From positions 100,304 through 164,303 of the forward strand of contig JAAFIM010000001.1 of the NCBI GenBank assembly GCA_013297745.1: DNA of 64,000 nucleotides. Reading direction: 5' to 3'. The notes beneath the pieces were generated by a model. The model ran no database searches, was not told the DNA's origin, and saw only the letters and a program-made list of their open reading frames with translations. Below, in pieces: positions 23,854-28,873 of the stretch; position 1 is the first letter of the stretch; each line of letters starts with the position of its first letter. This stretch comes from Chitinophagales bacterium (GTDB lineage: Bacteria > Bacteroidota > Bacteroidia > Chitinophagales > Saprospiraceae). A program made the position numbers and the translations under genes.

Positions 23854-23861
23854 CTATCTTT
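23854..23861 (+). promoter_or_regulatory. -7 box of the PorP/SprF-like gene
   Basis: TATCTTTG, which overlaps the TTG at 23860 where a longer frame could begin. Transcription should start about 23869, so translation from 23860 is impossible and the ATG at 23941 is supported. Confidence 0.65.
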
Positions 23862-23940
23862 GCGGCTAAAATTTTACTCATCAAACACTCAACCTTCAAT
23901 TAAATCTATTAAATCAAAAAAAAATCAAAACATTCTGAAT

Positions 23941-24981
23941 ATGATACAGATTCGTAAACAAATACTATTATTGTTAATGCTCGGATTTTTTGGGGTTATC
24001 CAAGCACAAGACATACACTACTCTATGTTTGACCTTGCTCCTATCCAACTCAATGCAGCCAACACAGGCAACTTTGCTGGTACTTTTCGCATTGGAGGTA
24101 TTTATAGAGGGCAATGGACTGGATTAAACACCAATACAGGGCTAACAGGTACAAGCAACTTCAAAGGTTTTAATACCCCTTCAGCTTATATTGATGTGCC
24201 TTTCACATTTAGCAAAAAAAATCCAATCCGTAGTTGGTTTGGTGTTGGTTTGAGTTTCTTGAGTGACAAAGCTGGTATGGGCGGACTTTCTACTATGGGT
24301 GGTTCTTTGTCTTTGGCTTATCACTTGGGCTTGGGCGCCAATGGCAACACACGTATATCTATAGGTGCTCGTGGCGGTTTGTCACAACAACGCGTAGATG
24401 CTAGCGTGTTTTCTTTTGAAGATGGCATTATATCAGGCAATACAAGTATAGACAACAACTTGGCTAGTGATGCGGTTTCTTATGCAGATTTTTCTGCGGG
24501 TTTGCAACTCACACACATGACTTCGGCTTGGAATGTAACTGCTGGTTTTGCAGCCAACCATATTTCTCGCCCCAAGTACAACTTTTTGGGTACAGACGCA
24601 CAACTACCTATGGGCTTGGTGGGCAATTTGACTTTCAATTTTAATTTGGGTCAAAAATTCTTGCTTCGTCCTATGGCTTTTTATCAATATATGAGCCGCG
24701 CTCAAGAGACCAATTTGCAGGCTTTATTTGGTATTCACTTCAATGATGCCAAAGATGTGACTTTCCTTGTAGGTGGTGGTTATCGCTTGGGTGATGCTGC
24801 TATTGGTCGCATTGGCTTGGAACTAAAAGGCTTGCGTTTTGGATTTGCTTATGATTTCAACCTAAGCTCACTTTCGCAAACTAACGGTCGTGCTCAAGCA
24901 TTTGAGGTGGGACTTTCTTATATCGCTAAGTTGTACAAAAAACCTTTGGTAAAAGAAATCTTGTTCTGCCCTCGTTTCTAA
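23941..24981 (+). CDS. PorP/SprF-family T9SS outer-membrane protein
   Basis: 346 residues from the ATG at 23941, followed by signal peptide MIQIRKQILLLLMLGFFG...QAQ. The family hallmarks follow: DIHYSMFDLAPIQLNAANTG at the mature N-terminus, IGGIYRGQW, and alternating beta-strands to the end. PorP/SprF proteins are outer-membrane anchors that link T9SS or gliding components with peptidoglycan-bound OmpA-like partners. The next gene encodes exactly such a TPR-PD40-OmpA protein, 56 bases downstream. Confidence 0.88.
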   Translation: MIQIRKQILLLLMLGFFGVIQAQDIHYSMFDLAPIQLNAANTGNFAGTFRIGGIYRGQWTGLNTNTGLTGTSNFKGFNTPSAYIDVPFTFSKKNPIRSWFGVGLSFLSDKAGMGGLSTMGGSLSLAYHLGLGANGNTRISIGARGGLSQQRVDASVFSFEDGIISGNTSIDNNLASDAVSYADFSAGLQLTHMTSAWNVTAGFAANHISRPKYNFLGTDAQLPMGLVGNLTFNFNLGQKFLLRPMAFYQYMSRAQETNLQALFGIHFNDAKDVTFLVGGGYRLGDAAIGRIGLELKGLRFGFAYDFNLSSLSQTNGRAQAFEVGLSYIAKLYKKPLVKEILFCPRF

Positions 24982-25037: not shown

Positions 25038-27476
25038 ATGAAACATATCCCTTTGGCAATAATAATTGCCGCTTCACTAGCCCAAACTGCTTGGGCGCAA
25101 CCTACTCGCTCCCTTACTCCTGACAAAATGATGGAAATAGGTGATGCAAGTTTTGGTCAAAAAGACACTTATACAGCCCTCGAATGGTATACAAAAGCTT
25201 ATGACGCTGACAATTCCAATTTATTGGCAGCTCACCAAATCGCTACTATGTACGACCAACTTCGCGATTACAAAGAAGCTACTAAATGGTATGCTACTGT
25301 AGTAGATAAAGATAAAAATAAAGCTTATCCCAATGCTCGTCTGCGTTATGCACATACGCTAAAACTAAATGGTCAGTACGAAGAAGCTATCAAACAGTTT
25401 ACTGAAGTAGAAAAAGAAACTGCTGATGAACGCACCAAAAAAATATGTGCCATAGAAATTGAAGGTGCGCGCTGGGCTCGCAAATACCCAGAACAACCAG
25501 AACCGTTGGTGATAGAAAACGTTGGACGTAGTATCAACTCTCCTTCTTCAGAAGATGGTGCTTTTGCAGCTACTCGCGATAAAATTTATTACTCTTCGCT
25601 CAAAACTGATACGCTAATCTATACAGCTGAAGCTCCCGAAGACAAAAAAACCGCCAAAATCTATTATTCAACCCGCAGTTCGGACGGCACAGGCTGGGAA
25701 GCAGGCAAAGAATTTAACAATAGCATACTTTATCAAAGCGGTTTTCACGCAGTACAACCAGCTTTTACCCCTGATAAATCTAAATTTTATTTTGTAAAAG
25801 CAAAATTGGAAGGCAACTTCCTAAAAAACAGCCGCATTTATGTAGCCAATAACCAAAACGATAATTTGAGCAACCCTGTAGCTTTGTCTTTCAACTCAAA
25901 CGACTATAGCTGCAAAAATCCTCAAGTTGCTGTTATGGAAGGCAAATTGGTCTTGTTGTTTTCCTCTGACAAACCAGGCGGCAAAGGCGGTTTTGATATA
26001 TGGTATGCAGAAATCAACGCAGATGGCACCACTAAAGAGCCTTTGTTGGTTGGTGGCAACGTCAATACTATAGCTGACGACATTACCCCTTTCTTTGATG
26101 CACGCGAATCTATACTATATTTTAGCTCTCAAGGACACCCAAGTGTAGGCGGTTTTGACGTGTTCAAATCCAAATACAGCGCAGGCACTTACTCACAACC
26201 CGAAAATATGGGTTTTGGTTTCAACTCTCGCGTGGATGATTTCGGTTTCTCTATCAATCAAGAAGGCGCTGATGACTGTTATGGTTATGTAGTTTCTAAC
26301 CGTCCTGGTACGATTTCTATGAAAAGCGAAACTTGTTGCGATGACGTATTTTCTGTATTGATGCCCAACCGTTGCGATATTATCGCTAATGTGAACGTTA
26401 TCGACGAAGAAACTAAACAACCGCTCAAAAACGCTACAGTTCAATTGGTAGATAAAGCCACAGGCAAAGTTATCGACCAACAGAGCAATAAAGAAGGCAA
26501 CAACTATACTTTCAAGTTAGAACCCAACAAAGAGTATGAAGTTGTAGCCATAAAAGAAGGTTTTGACAAACCAAGCTCACAAACCAAACTTTCTACCCTC
26601 AAAAAAGATATTGGCGAAGTTACCAAACCTGTTACTATCAACAAAGAAACGCCTCTTAAAGAACAATTGGGCTTAGTGGTAGAAACTTACAACGCCAAAA
26701 CTCAACAAGGTTTGAATGGTGCTGAAGTTGCTATTTTTGATGCAGCTACAGGCGCAGAGTTGAAAAAAGAAAAACAAGATGGCAAAAATCGCTATGTTTT
26801 CCCATTAGGACGCGACCGCCAATACAAAATCGTAGCTTCTCGCGAAGGTTTTACGAGCGAAACTCGCACTATGACCCTTCAACAGGTGAAAATGGGCGAA
26901 ATGCAAAAAGTATATCTTACGCCTATGGAATTGCCTATATTCTATGATATATTCTTTGATTTCAACCGCGATGCTATCCGTACAGGTGCTGCTGATACCC
27001 TCAATAGAGTACTTGCTTCTTTGCAACAATTCCCTAACCTAGTAGTAGAAGTTCGCGGACACGCGGATGCTATTGGTAGTGATGGTTACAACGACCAACT
27101 TTCTGCTCGCCGTTCCAAAAATGCTATCGAATGGTTGGTAACCAAAGGTATAGCTCGTGAACGTTTTATCCCTCGCGCTGCTGGTGAAAAAGAACCTCGC
27201 GCTGCCAACGATAACAACGGTGTAGATAATCCCGAAGGACGTCAATTAAATCGCCGTGTTGAGTTCAAAATCATTGATGCCAAAGATGTAAAACCAACCC
27301 CAACTGGTGGCGTTACCGAATCTGGCAACCCTACAACCCCAGAAAAAACTGACCCTAAAAAAGACAAAATGTCTGGCAAAGGAAATGCTGATGCCAAAAA
27401 AGATAAAATGTCTGGCGAAAAAAATACCACAGATAAAAAAGACAAAATCAATAAAGCAGACGAAAAAAAAAAATAA
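25038..27476 (+). CDS. TPR-PD40-OmpA family protein (PorE/SprE-region type)
   Basis: 812 residues in the zero frame. Signal peptide to about 20; TPR-like helices about 25-140; PD40/WD40-like beta-propeller repeats about 160-390 (SSDKPGGKGGFDIWYAEI, FSSQGHPSVGGFDVFKS); two carboxypeptidase-regulatory-like folds about 450-625; OmpA domain about 634-750 with the peptidoglycan-binding motif LSARRSKNAIEWLVTKGI and NRRVEFKI. A Lys/Asp/Ser-rich tail follows (KKDKMSGKGN, KKDKMSGEKN). It tethers an outer-membrane machine to the wall and partners PorP. The frame ends TAA at 27474 right after an A11 run, and a DUF1573 domain follows in the -1 frame. Confidence 0.88.
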   Translation: MKHIPLAIIIAASLAQTAWAQPTRSLTPDKMMEIGDASFGQKDTYTALEWYTKAYDADNSNLLAAHQIATMYDQLRDYKEATKWYATVVDKDKNKAYPNARLRYAHTLKLNGQYEEAIKQFTEVEKETADERTKKICAIEIEGARWARKYPEQPEPLVIENVGRSINSPSSEDGAFAATRDKIYYSSLKTDTLIYTAEAPEDKKTAKIYYSTRSSDGTGWEAGKEFNNSILYQSGFHAVQPAFTPDKSKFYFVKAKLEGNFLKNSRIYVANNQNDNLSNPVALSFNSNDYSCKNPQVAVMEGKLVLLFSSDKPGGKGGFDIWYAEINADGTTKEPLLVGGNVNTIADDITPFFDARESILYFSSQGHPSVGGFDVFKSKYSAGTYSQPENMGFGFNSRVDDFGFSINQEGADDCYGYVVSNRPGTISMKSETCCDDVFSVLMPNRCDIIANVNVIDEETKQPLKNATVQLVDKATGKVIDQQSNKEGNNYTFKLEPNKEYEVVAIKEGFDKPSSQTKLSTLKKDIGEVTKPVTINKETPLKEQLGLVVETYNAKTQQGLNGAEVAIFDAATGAELKKEKQDGKNRYVFPLGRDRQYKIVASREGFTSETRTMTLQQVKMGEMQKVYLTPMELPIFYDIFFDFNRDAIRTGAADTLNRVLASLQQFPNLVVEVRGHADAIGSDGYNDQLSARRSKNAIEWLVTKGIARERFIPRAAGEKEPRAANDNNGVDNPEGRQLNRRVEFKIIDAKDVKPTPTGGVTESGNPTTPEKTDPKKDKMSGKGNADAKKDKMSGEKNTTDKKDKINKADEKKK

Positions 27477-27829
27477 GTGATTCGGACAAAACAGGCACTA
27501 ATCCTAACCCAACCACTACGATAACTTTCGGCAATACAAACACAAAATTAGGTCAAATTAAATTCGGCGAAACCAAAGAATTTACTTTTGAATTCACCAA
27601 CACAGGCAAAGAGGAATTTGTAGTCAAAAATATAGGTGGCTCTTGCTCTTGTACGGAAATTATAGACTTTAAAAAACGTGTTGCTGCTGGTCAAAAAGGA
27701 TTTATCAAAGTAAAATTTGATTCTAATAAAGCCTCTGTCCAAAATGCTTATCCTTCTGGAGTAGAGATTTTTGCCAATACGCCTGACCCACTTACCCTTT
27801 TCAATTTTACCATTGACGTTGTCAAATAA
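27455..27829 (+). CDS. DUF1573 domain in the -1 frame of the OmpA-family gene, no start codon
   Basis: This frame opens at 27455 after a stop and runs to TAA at 27827-27829. It has no ATG, GTG, TTG or CTG before or within the domain. The translated part (about 118 residues from the shift point) is a clear DUF1573 Ig-like domain: LGQIKFGETKEFTFEFTNTG, then GGSCSCTEI, then GQKGFIKVKFDS. It can be made only as a fusion with the OmpA-family protein, by -1 shift or one extra A in the A11 tract at 27463-27473, giving about 930 residues; or the break is a mutation or assembly error. The Lys-rich tail of the zero frame reads as the natural linker. Confidence 0.72.
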   Translation, partial: SRRKKKISDSDKTGTNPNPTTTITFGNTNTKLGQIKFGETKEFTFEFTNTGKEEFVVKNIGGSCSCTEIIDFKKRVAAGQKGFIKVKFDSNKASVQNAYPSGVEIFANTPDPLTLFNFTIDVVK

Positions 27830-27837
27830 TAACTTCT

Positions 27838-27873
27838 TGGGCTTGGCTTTTTTGCTAAGCCCTTTTTTTTTAA
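27838..27873 (+). terminator. Terminator after the DUF1573 frame
   Basis: GGGCTTGGC / GCTAAGCCC with a nine-T run. It lies just beyond the DUF1573 stop and not behind the OmpA stop at 27476, which supports one transcript covering both. Confidence 0.85.
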
Positions 27874-27898: not shown

Positions 27899-28873
27899 AT
27901 GAATTTTTCCCAATTCCAACAACAGCTACAACAAACTCTTGCTTTTACTGAGCAATTGGCTAAACAATTTCCTGACGGCAATCTGCCCGCTTTGGATAAA
28001 GATGTGCTGACTGCTCGCCTGCGCTCGCTCTATGAGTTATTAACTTTTAACCAACCCAGTAACCTTTTTGTACAAACTTCAACCCCTACAGTTTTGGTGG
28101 AAACTATCGCTGAAACGGTTGAACAACCCACAGCTTTGGTGGAAACTATCGCTGAAACAGTTGAAAAACCCACAGTTTTGGTGGAAACTATAGCTGAAAC
28201 GGTTGAACAACCTACAGTTTTGGTGGAAACTATAGCTGAAACGGTTGAACAACCCACAGTTTTGGTGGAAACTATCGCTGAAGAATCCACAAGCAATGAA
28301 GTAGAGTTTGTTATAGAACAACCCCATACCCGTCTTAAACCAGAAGTCAATACACCTTTGGAAATTATAAACACAGAAAATATCTCCCAAGATAATTCGC
28401 TTGCTATAGTTCAAACCCCAAAAGAAGAACCTAAAACTGAAGTGACAGGTTTAACTGTCAATAGTGGATTTTCTATGGTAGAACAAAAAATAACGATTAA
28501 TAATCGTGCTATTTATGATGCTAATGAAGAAGCTTTGCGCAATCAATCCAGCTTTAAATCTGAATATGACGAATTATTTGAGTTTAAGGCTGCTTCTGAA
28601 TTATCCCAACGCTTAAGCGAGACCAAAGTGGAAGACCTCAATAAAGCTATGGGGTTGAATGAAAAATTCTTTTATATCAACGAATTATTTGGTGGCAATA
28701 GCGCAAAATTTCGCGCTTGTTTGGAATTTCTAAACAACAATGCTAAAAATATAGAAAGTGCCCGCGAGTACTTAGAAGCTGATATTATGGACACACATAG
28801 TTGGGCTAATCCCAAACGCAAACCTTTGGCCAAAGACTTTATCAAAACAGTAAGAAGACGTTATTTAAAATAA
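27899..28873 (+). CDS. Uncharacterised cytoplasmic protein with 14-residue acidic repeats
   Basis: 324 residues in three parts. An N-terminal helical part (1-60, MNFSQFQQQLQQTL) is followed by 4.6 copies of VLVETIAETVEQPT (about 65-128) and an acidic linker. The C-terminal domain of about 110 residues (KAMGLNEKFFYINELFGGN, then CLEFLNNN and KDFIKTVRRRYLK) is, as I recall, conserved in Bacteroidota proteins of unknown function. The repeat part is a flexible low-complexity spacer and is also a 42-bp DNA repeat. No signal peptide. Confidence 0.75.
   Translation: MNFSQFQQQLQQTLAFTEQLAKQFPDGNLPALDKDVLTARLRSLYELLTFNQPSNLFVQTSTPTVLVETIAETVEQPTALVETIAETVEKPTVLVETIAETVEQPTVLVETIAETVEQPTVLVETIAEESTSNEVEFVIEQPHTRLKPEVNTPLEIINTENISQDNSLAIVQTPKEEPKTEVTGLTVNSGFSMVEQKITINNRAIYDANEEALRNQSSFKSEYDELFEFKAASELSQRLSETKVEDLNKAMGLNEKFFYINELFGGNSAKFRACLEFLNNNAKNIESAREYLEADIMDTHSWANPKRKPLAKDFIKTVRRRYLK
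28091..28282 (+). repeat. 42-bp tandem repeat inside the 27899 gene
   Basis: Units start at 28091, 28133, 28175, 28217 and 28259 (the last partial), with only a few base differences (for example ATCGCT/ATAGCT and CAACCC/AAACCC). The recent-looking array lengthens the protein in 14-residue steps without changing frame. Confidence 0.9.

Follow-up and report, generated by a model that had tools for sequence, protein, structure and literature searches.

Probable programmed transcriptional slippage at the end of a PorE-like gene behind porP/sprF in Saprospiraceae

Introduction

How can a protein domain be made when its frame offers no start codon and the gene in front of it stops just short of it? 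The question is raised by a 64,000-nucleotide stretch of a Chitinophagales bacterium (Saprospiraceae; assembly GCA_013297745.1, contig JAAFIM010000001.1, positions 100,304 to 164,303 of the forward strand; hereafter the window), in which an OmpA-family gene resembling PorE of the type IX secretion system (T9SS) ends directly behind a run of eleven A, with a DUF1573 domain encoded next to it in the −1 frame. A first-pass annotation, made from the letters alone, had proposed that gene and domain are joined only by a frame change at this tract. Comparison with related genomes indicates a real, conserved recoding site, most likely one of programmed transcriptional slippage (a reading to which we assign a probability of roughly 0.8), the interest of which lies in its spread and its switching states.

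The junction in the window

The OmpA-family gene occupies positions 25038–27476 of the forward strand (0 frame, 812 residues), with the A11 tract at 27463–27473 and, adjoining it, the stop codon TAA (27474–27476) that would end the unslipped product. A stop-to-stop open frame on the same strand (27455–27829), in −1 register to the gene, carries the DUF1573 domain at about 27521–27808 (PF07610, E 2.6e-19, 69.5 bits against a gathering score of 26.1), and upstream of the domain this frame contains neither ATG nor GTG nor TTG. The third frame is closed by a TGA at 27478–27480, where transcripts that had lost one base or gained two would end. Behind the DUF1573 stop lies an intrinsic-terminator-like hairpin followed by T9 (27839–27871, forward strand); its nine-pair stem is the longest among the four terminator-like sites of the region, a number in no excess over shuffled sequence (3.3, standard deviation 1.8). 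One base added at the tract joins 812 and 118 residues into a protein of 930. The first-pass account of this anatomy, from the stop behind A11 and the startless domain to the terminator past the second frame and a joined product of about 930 residues, is borne out here.

In the proposed mechanism RNA polymerase would slip on the A11 tract (in relatives, on A9 to A11 or on T9). A transcript that keeps the template length, or exceeds it by a multiple of three, would meet the adjoining stop and give a short anchor. With one base added, alone or on top of such a multiple, reading would pass to the −1 frame, and the product would be the anchor extended by a C-terminal DUF1573 domain of immunoglobulin (Ig)/PapD-like fold. 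Translation of third-frame transcripts would terminate after a few codons. Both proteins would then be made, and their ratio may matter.

Of the 17 A/T runs of at least nine bases in the window, A11 has the greatest length, and the host genome (G000, a 4.28 Mb draft in 154 contigs) contains nine distinct tracts of at least eleven A. The OmpA frame has a Lys-rich tail, encoded by an imperfect 39-nucleotide tandem repeat (27356–27448, forward strand), and 98% of the Lys codons of the gene are AAA. A pure AAA run is therefore unsurprising by itself in this genome, and the case rests on the relatives. The Lys-rich tail region has a second match in the same genome (locus L002, G000:C144:47637-47758; 70% DNA identity).

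Recurrence of the junction in relatives

An initial search of 60 genomes, with the OmpA part and the DUF1573 part each as query, found DUF1573 often directly 3′ of the OmpA part. The OmpA part is present in 358 of 398 genomes of the family, and junctions were drawn from the roughly 150 matches listed, 60 each for short and for long open frames, leaving out G094 and G253 (contig ends) and some long-frame rows (G, L and g numbers denote genomes, loci and genera). The classification also takes in 26 of the first 30 loci (L008, L017, L018 and L027, without DUF1573, enter only the tree) and 15 of 23 later loci (L196 and L199–L205 being left out). Locus frequencies given below describe these sampled junctions rather than the family at large. 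Among the matches listed, compared by eye, none showed OmpA and DUF1573 parts adjacent in another family.

Of the 161 loci classified, 78 are unbroken in-frame OmpA–DUF1573 fusions, homologues that the first-pass annotation had singled out as telling, 41 have the domain overlapping out of frame, 17 carry a separate DUF1573 gene, and 25 are without DUF1573 in the fetched span. The junction bears an A or T tract of 9–11 bases in 38 of the 41 overlapping loci (A10 in L183). The other three comprise L067 and L091, in each of which the domain belongs to a separate gene with a signal of its own (their A7 and A6 runs, respectively, lie past the OmpA stop and not at the junction), and L165/L332 (G244), with a frameshift inside the domain; this last gene is otherwise fused and has no long tract, and its mid-domain frameshift is probably error or decay. 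A set of named contigs, the best 80 of 573 loci, all examined, contributes L264 (A10) and L286 (T9), and L186 was dropped because it repeats the junction of L185. Plain fusions in the culturable Neolewinella persica (L302) and Lewinella cohaerens (L305) also come from the named set. The 39 distinct tract loci that result carry A9 (7), A10 (24), A11 (3) or T9 (5), with the domain in the −1 frame in 37 and in the +1 frame in two (L118, L191). They cover 16 coded genera in addition to the two named contigs, and include near-complete genomes (G149, G270, G079, G238). Four in-frame fusions from three genera also carry A9 or A10 (G012, G141 and G197, A10; G272, A9). Separate DUF1573 genes, counting L067 and L091, come to 19 loci, in which a lipoprotein-like signal is recognised by pattern in 12 and by eye in six of the other seven.

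In a quick tree of the OmpA parts, in which some forks are open (132 of 145 loci, nine duplicates and four with too little sequence having been dropped), there are at least 15 changes between tract and all other states, and at least 12 when the tract is set against the fused state only. A supported clade of the window, G098 and genera g79 and g22 has the tract in 13 of 13 rows, its members sharing 45–54% protein identity with the window. Linker words such as SSLYGRKDLTGVPIM are common to a tract locus and a fused locus (L022, L031). The first-pass suggestion that the homopolymer slips and yields two products gains support from the 39 distinct tract loci, slippage itself being deduced from sequence.

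The tract is not a feature of this coding sequence in general. A/T runs of nine or more are absent from 298,068 bases encoding OmpA parts (145 loci), the longest there being 15 of A8 and one of T8, and they occur in four of 98 distinct in-frame (fused) linkers. A Fisher comparison of 39/39 with 4/98 gives 5e-30, with kinship still in the data and the 39 defined by their tract; the fair statement of the enrichment is 38 of the 41 overlapping loci. Loci that encode Lys mostly by AAG keep the tract as well (AAA share 0.31 in L009, 0.32 in L238), and codon usage hardly explains the run in these two. The shifted frame is under purifying selection in most pairs tested, the ratio of nonsynonymous to synonymous substitution rates (dN/dS) of the domain frame being 0.04–0.11 in eight of nine computable pairs (12 pairs of close relatives, some loci used twice, three pairs saturated).

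Polymerase or ribosome

The same join could be made by the ribosome, through programmed −1 frameshifting on A_AAA_AAN or U_UUU_UUN, aided in some genera by a hairpin behind the stop codon. We consider this unlikely. It would account for the 37 of 39 loci in the −1 frame, any run of nine or more includes a slippery heptamer in register as a matter of arithmetic, and A_AAA_AAG is efficient in E. coli, with the weak A_AAA_AAC very likely used by insertion sequence elements (PMC4066793). However, the shortest tract has nine bases although the heptamer needs only seven, and no junction run of six to eight is found among the 41 overlapping loci, which favours the polymerase. A threshold near nine fits the polymerase’s RNA:DNA hybrid of 9–10 base pairs and the proneness of 9A/9T runs to slippage (PMC5009743, PMC1088944). 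That T9 takes the place of the A run in five loci likewise speaks against the ribosome.

The third frame bears directly on the choice. It is closed within 15 nucleotides of the tract in 36 of 39 loci (median 5 nucleotides; exceptions L005, L286 and L064), against control rates of 0.21–0.28 per frame (14,232 positions, 93 fused linkers) and of 0.40 further along the same loci. Counted in genus-level units it is closed in 17 of 20 (P 6e-6 at a chance rate of 0.35, 1e-3 at 0.5). A −1 ribosomal shift never enters this frame, yet it is closed, which again favours the polymerase. The four in-frame A9/A10 fusions present the mirror arrangement, both other frames stopping 0–13 nucleotides past the tract in 4/4, and point the same way. 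Finally, one inserted base is needed in 37 of 39 loci, in keeping with the finding that A/T runs in vivo gain bases more often than they lose them (PMC5574713). Two loci need the opposite direction; mixed direction among orthologues is described as a mark of transcriptional realignment (PMC3711429), and the two +1-frame loci do not suit a −1 ribosomal shift.

Several observations weigh against slippage by the polymerase. Predicted RNA structure past the tract is in excess, with z below −2 in 11–14 of 39 loci at offsets 0–6 compared with 0–2 of 39 in six control windows (offsets −130 to −80 and 70 to 180); a first run had given 12/39 against 1/39. Mean z in the fused linkers (94–97) is −0.32 to 0.13. 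Measured from the domain start, at offsets 0 and 40, tract loci have mean z of −0.73 and −0.80 (below −2 in six and five of 39) and fused loci −0.18 and −0.32 (three and nine of 97). Structure downstream of the tract could affect ribosomes but hardly a polymerase still in the tract. Three loci of genus g103 (L066, L068, L073) keep a common stem past A10 with changes on both sides, as judged by eye from the three sequences, and a Shine–Dalgarno (SD)-like motif precedes the tract in 12 of 39 loci, an uncontrolled count. The 37:2 bias in direction is equally compatible with a −1 ribosomal shift, and the two +1-frame loci, both taken from draft assemblies, may be erroneous. That the 0 frame is closed in 38 of 39 loci is weak evidence, as it follows in part from the way the class is defined. 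An ATG, GTG or TTG does stand before the domain in its own frame in 15 of 39 loci (ATG in six), the T9 pair L109/L111 has a dN/dS of 0.35, and the case for slippage is made from genome comparison rather than from transcripts or proteins.

Against a ribosomal mechanism, the window locus shows neither downstream structure (z +0.48) nor an SD-like motif, and the same holds for two of its relatives, L004 (z +0.72) and L189 (z +0.99), though z is below −2 in L188, L192 and L193. RNAalifold gave no fold for the g22 set (seven sequences) or for g17, and only a weak one for a mixed set of six. In the lineages with hairpins a ribosomal contribution, or a coupling to termination, is possible. The g103 hairpin behind A10 resembles ribosomal frameshift sites. 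Past the T9 of L109 and L111 (G333, G362) a long stem lies inside the DUF1573 linker, and in L109 it ends in a T run; to judge by its sequence this stem looks like an intrinsic terminator, which ribosomes in the shifted frame would need to cross.

Other explanations

A different kind of switch would be phase variation, in which the length of the DNA tract mutates and toggles the extension within a population. Long homopolymers are indeed mutable, phase variation frequently affects surface proteins (PMC3711429), and tract lengths of 9–11 occur in genus g17. The registers are nevertheless far from evenly spread: by genus, 16 are in the −1 frame, two in the +1 frame and three in frame (g6 and g79 counted twice), and the −1 share differs from one third with P 7e-5. 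Moreover, tract length is equal in G149 and G223, which have identical OmpA parts, and in the close pairs L066/L068, L192/L193 and L109/L111. We therefore regard phase variation as quite improbable.

The first-pass annotation had kept open that the break is a mutation or a sequencing error. Homopolymers are error-prone, long-read assemblies that consistently drop one base from such runs, as some do, would mimic a −1 frame, and the relative G244 shows a frameshift in mid-domain. Against this, the break falls at one junction in 39 distinct loci, near-complete genomes among them, and three of the loci lie on contigs with names given by short-read assemblers (L238 NODE_, L259 k99_, L315 k127_). 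Purifying selection on the shifted frame and the closed third frame likewise count against error and against a recent frameshift that made the domain a pseudogene. Recurrence, dN/dS and the near-complete genomes thus make error or recent decay very unlikely indeed.

That there are simply two genes, with DUF1573 reinitiated from a rare start codon after the OmpA stop, is barely credible: the OmpA stop and the domain frame do overlap closely, a possible start precedes the domain in 15 of 39 tract loci, and homologues with their own start, which the first-pass annotation had named as contrary evidence, do exist as separate genes in 19 loci (17 plus L067 and L091), but the window frame has neither a usual start, as in 24 of the 39 loci, nor a signal peptide, unlike most of the separate genes, and the tract would have no role.

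The out-of-frame domain

An AlphaFold model made with an alignment of 36 of the 39 out-of-frame domains has eight strands and a confidence score (pLDDT) of 89.1. A Foldseek search with it places the PapD-like HYDIN structure 2e6j at rank 2 and 2qsv of Porphyromonas gingivalis at rank 4; by sequence, the DUF1573 part matched no solved structure up to E 1. No signal was found on the DUF1573 frame of the window, so its export would require joining to the OmpA protein. The extension is probably located in the periplasm, where it would extend a T9SS-type anchor. The first-pass label of a surface domain is unlikely to hold, as the OmpA part should bind peptidoglycan and DUF1573 is probably periplasmic.

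A C-x-C motif (C57 and C59 of window:27476-27826) is invariant in 36 of 36 aligned out-of-frame domains, and on the model of the OS_HP2 (seleno)protein family the domain scores 34.9 bits, below the threshold of 100. Together these sequence features hint at a redox or metal role.

The PorE-like anchor and its neighbour

The TPR, CarboxypepD_reg and OmpA domains of the window protein exceed their Pfam cut-offs, and PD40 falls just under it (20.3 against 20.9 bits). With that sub-threshold match counted, this would be the order described for PorE of P. gingivalis, in which TPR, β-propeller, carboxypeptidase-regulatory and OmpA_C domains follow one another (PMC7192894, PMC9143113). PorE acts with PorP, and the proposed role for it is that of a bridge between peptidoglycan and PorP (PMC9143113). 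The window protein differs from it in carrying DUF1573 behind, in scoring 245 bits on the NCBIfam model T9SS_PorE, under the cut-off of 600, and in its N terminus, a signal peptide with AWA-QP in which no lipobox Cys was found by eye. Given the low score and the missing lipobox we call it PorE-like only. On the model CHU_0125_OmpA it scores 263 bits, under a cut-off of 620. Its OmpA part probably binds peptidoglycan.

Directly upstream lies a gene for a PorP/SprF-family outer-membrane protein (23860–24981 of the forward strand as the open reading frame (ORF) from the first start; the likely start is an ATG near 23941), which matches PF11751 (E 3e-34) and TIGR03519 (154 bits, cut-off 90.55). 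A PorP/SprF-like frame precedes all 26 of the 26 tract loci with sufficient upstream sequence.

Known systems and implications

The closest tested precedent is tssM1 of Citrobacter rodentium, in which an A11 tract upstream of the stop gives mRNAs with 10–15 A and about 20% frameshifting, and in which both forms, and their ratio, are required for the type VI secretion system (T6SS; PMC4256274). In each case A11 stands shortly before the stop of an envelope-anchored component of a secretion system, and one inserted base adds a C-terminal domain, giving two length variants. The gene and the secretion system are unrelated, and slippage is proven for tssM1 but deduced for the window locus; moreover, tssM1 slippage is reported from C. 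rodentium and Yersinia pseudotuberculosis (PMC4256274), whereas the present junction is found again and again in one family and has A, T and in-frame versions. The in-frame fusions G012, G141, G197 and G272 match the arrangement of dnaX of Thermus thermophilus, where slippage on a long A tract (A9, in frame) leads to a stop in either of the remaining frames. The dnaX product made without slippage is the long form, whereas at the window locus it would be the short one, and the proteins are unrelated (PMC5009743, PMC1088944). In mxiE and spa13 of the Shigella type III secretion system (T3SS) an inserted base joins overlapping frames into a C-terminal extension, and the T9 loci of the present family recall the U run of mxiE; these genes are plasmid-borne and their proteins unrelated (PMC5009743, PMC1088944). 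Among the titles and abstracts listed by searches of the open-licence literature, none reported slippage in T9SS proteins or in this gene family.

We lean, by a narrow measure, towards a broader reading for Saprospiraceae-like bacteria. On this reading an anchor that is linked to PorP and binds peptidoglycan comes in two forms, whose ratio is governed by polymerase slippage. The switch would have arisen time and again at this one junction, out of A tracts or T tracts and in both polarities, a slip adding the domain or losing it, and in evolution it would alternate with the plain fusion and the free-standing DUF1573 lipoprotein. If so, the T9SS would join the T3SS and T6SS in using slippage for stoichiometry. 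The junction is a candidate case of slippage that is widely conserved and affects a chromosomal gene outside mobile elements. The natural series of A9, A10, A11, T9, in-frame tract, plain fusion and separate gene lends itself to direct experiments on what sets a domain ratio and why it toggles. A gene finder that closes the gene at the stop of the 0 frame would lose the domain, and C-terminal parts of this kind may escape annotation.

Other features of the window

Two further repeats lie near or away from the junction. The ORF at 27899–28873 contains a 42-nucleotide repeat in 4.6 copies (28088–28282) that encodes repeats like TVLVETIAETVEQP, and a 21-nucleotide tandem repeat of 11.3 copies, with 97% matches, spans positions 145–381 of the window.

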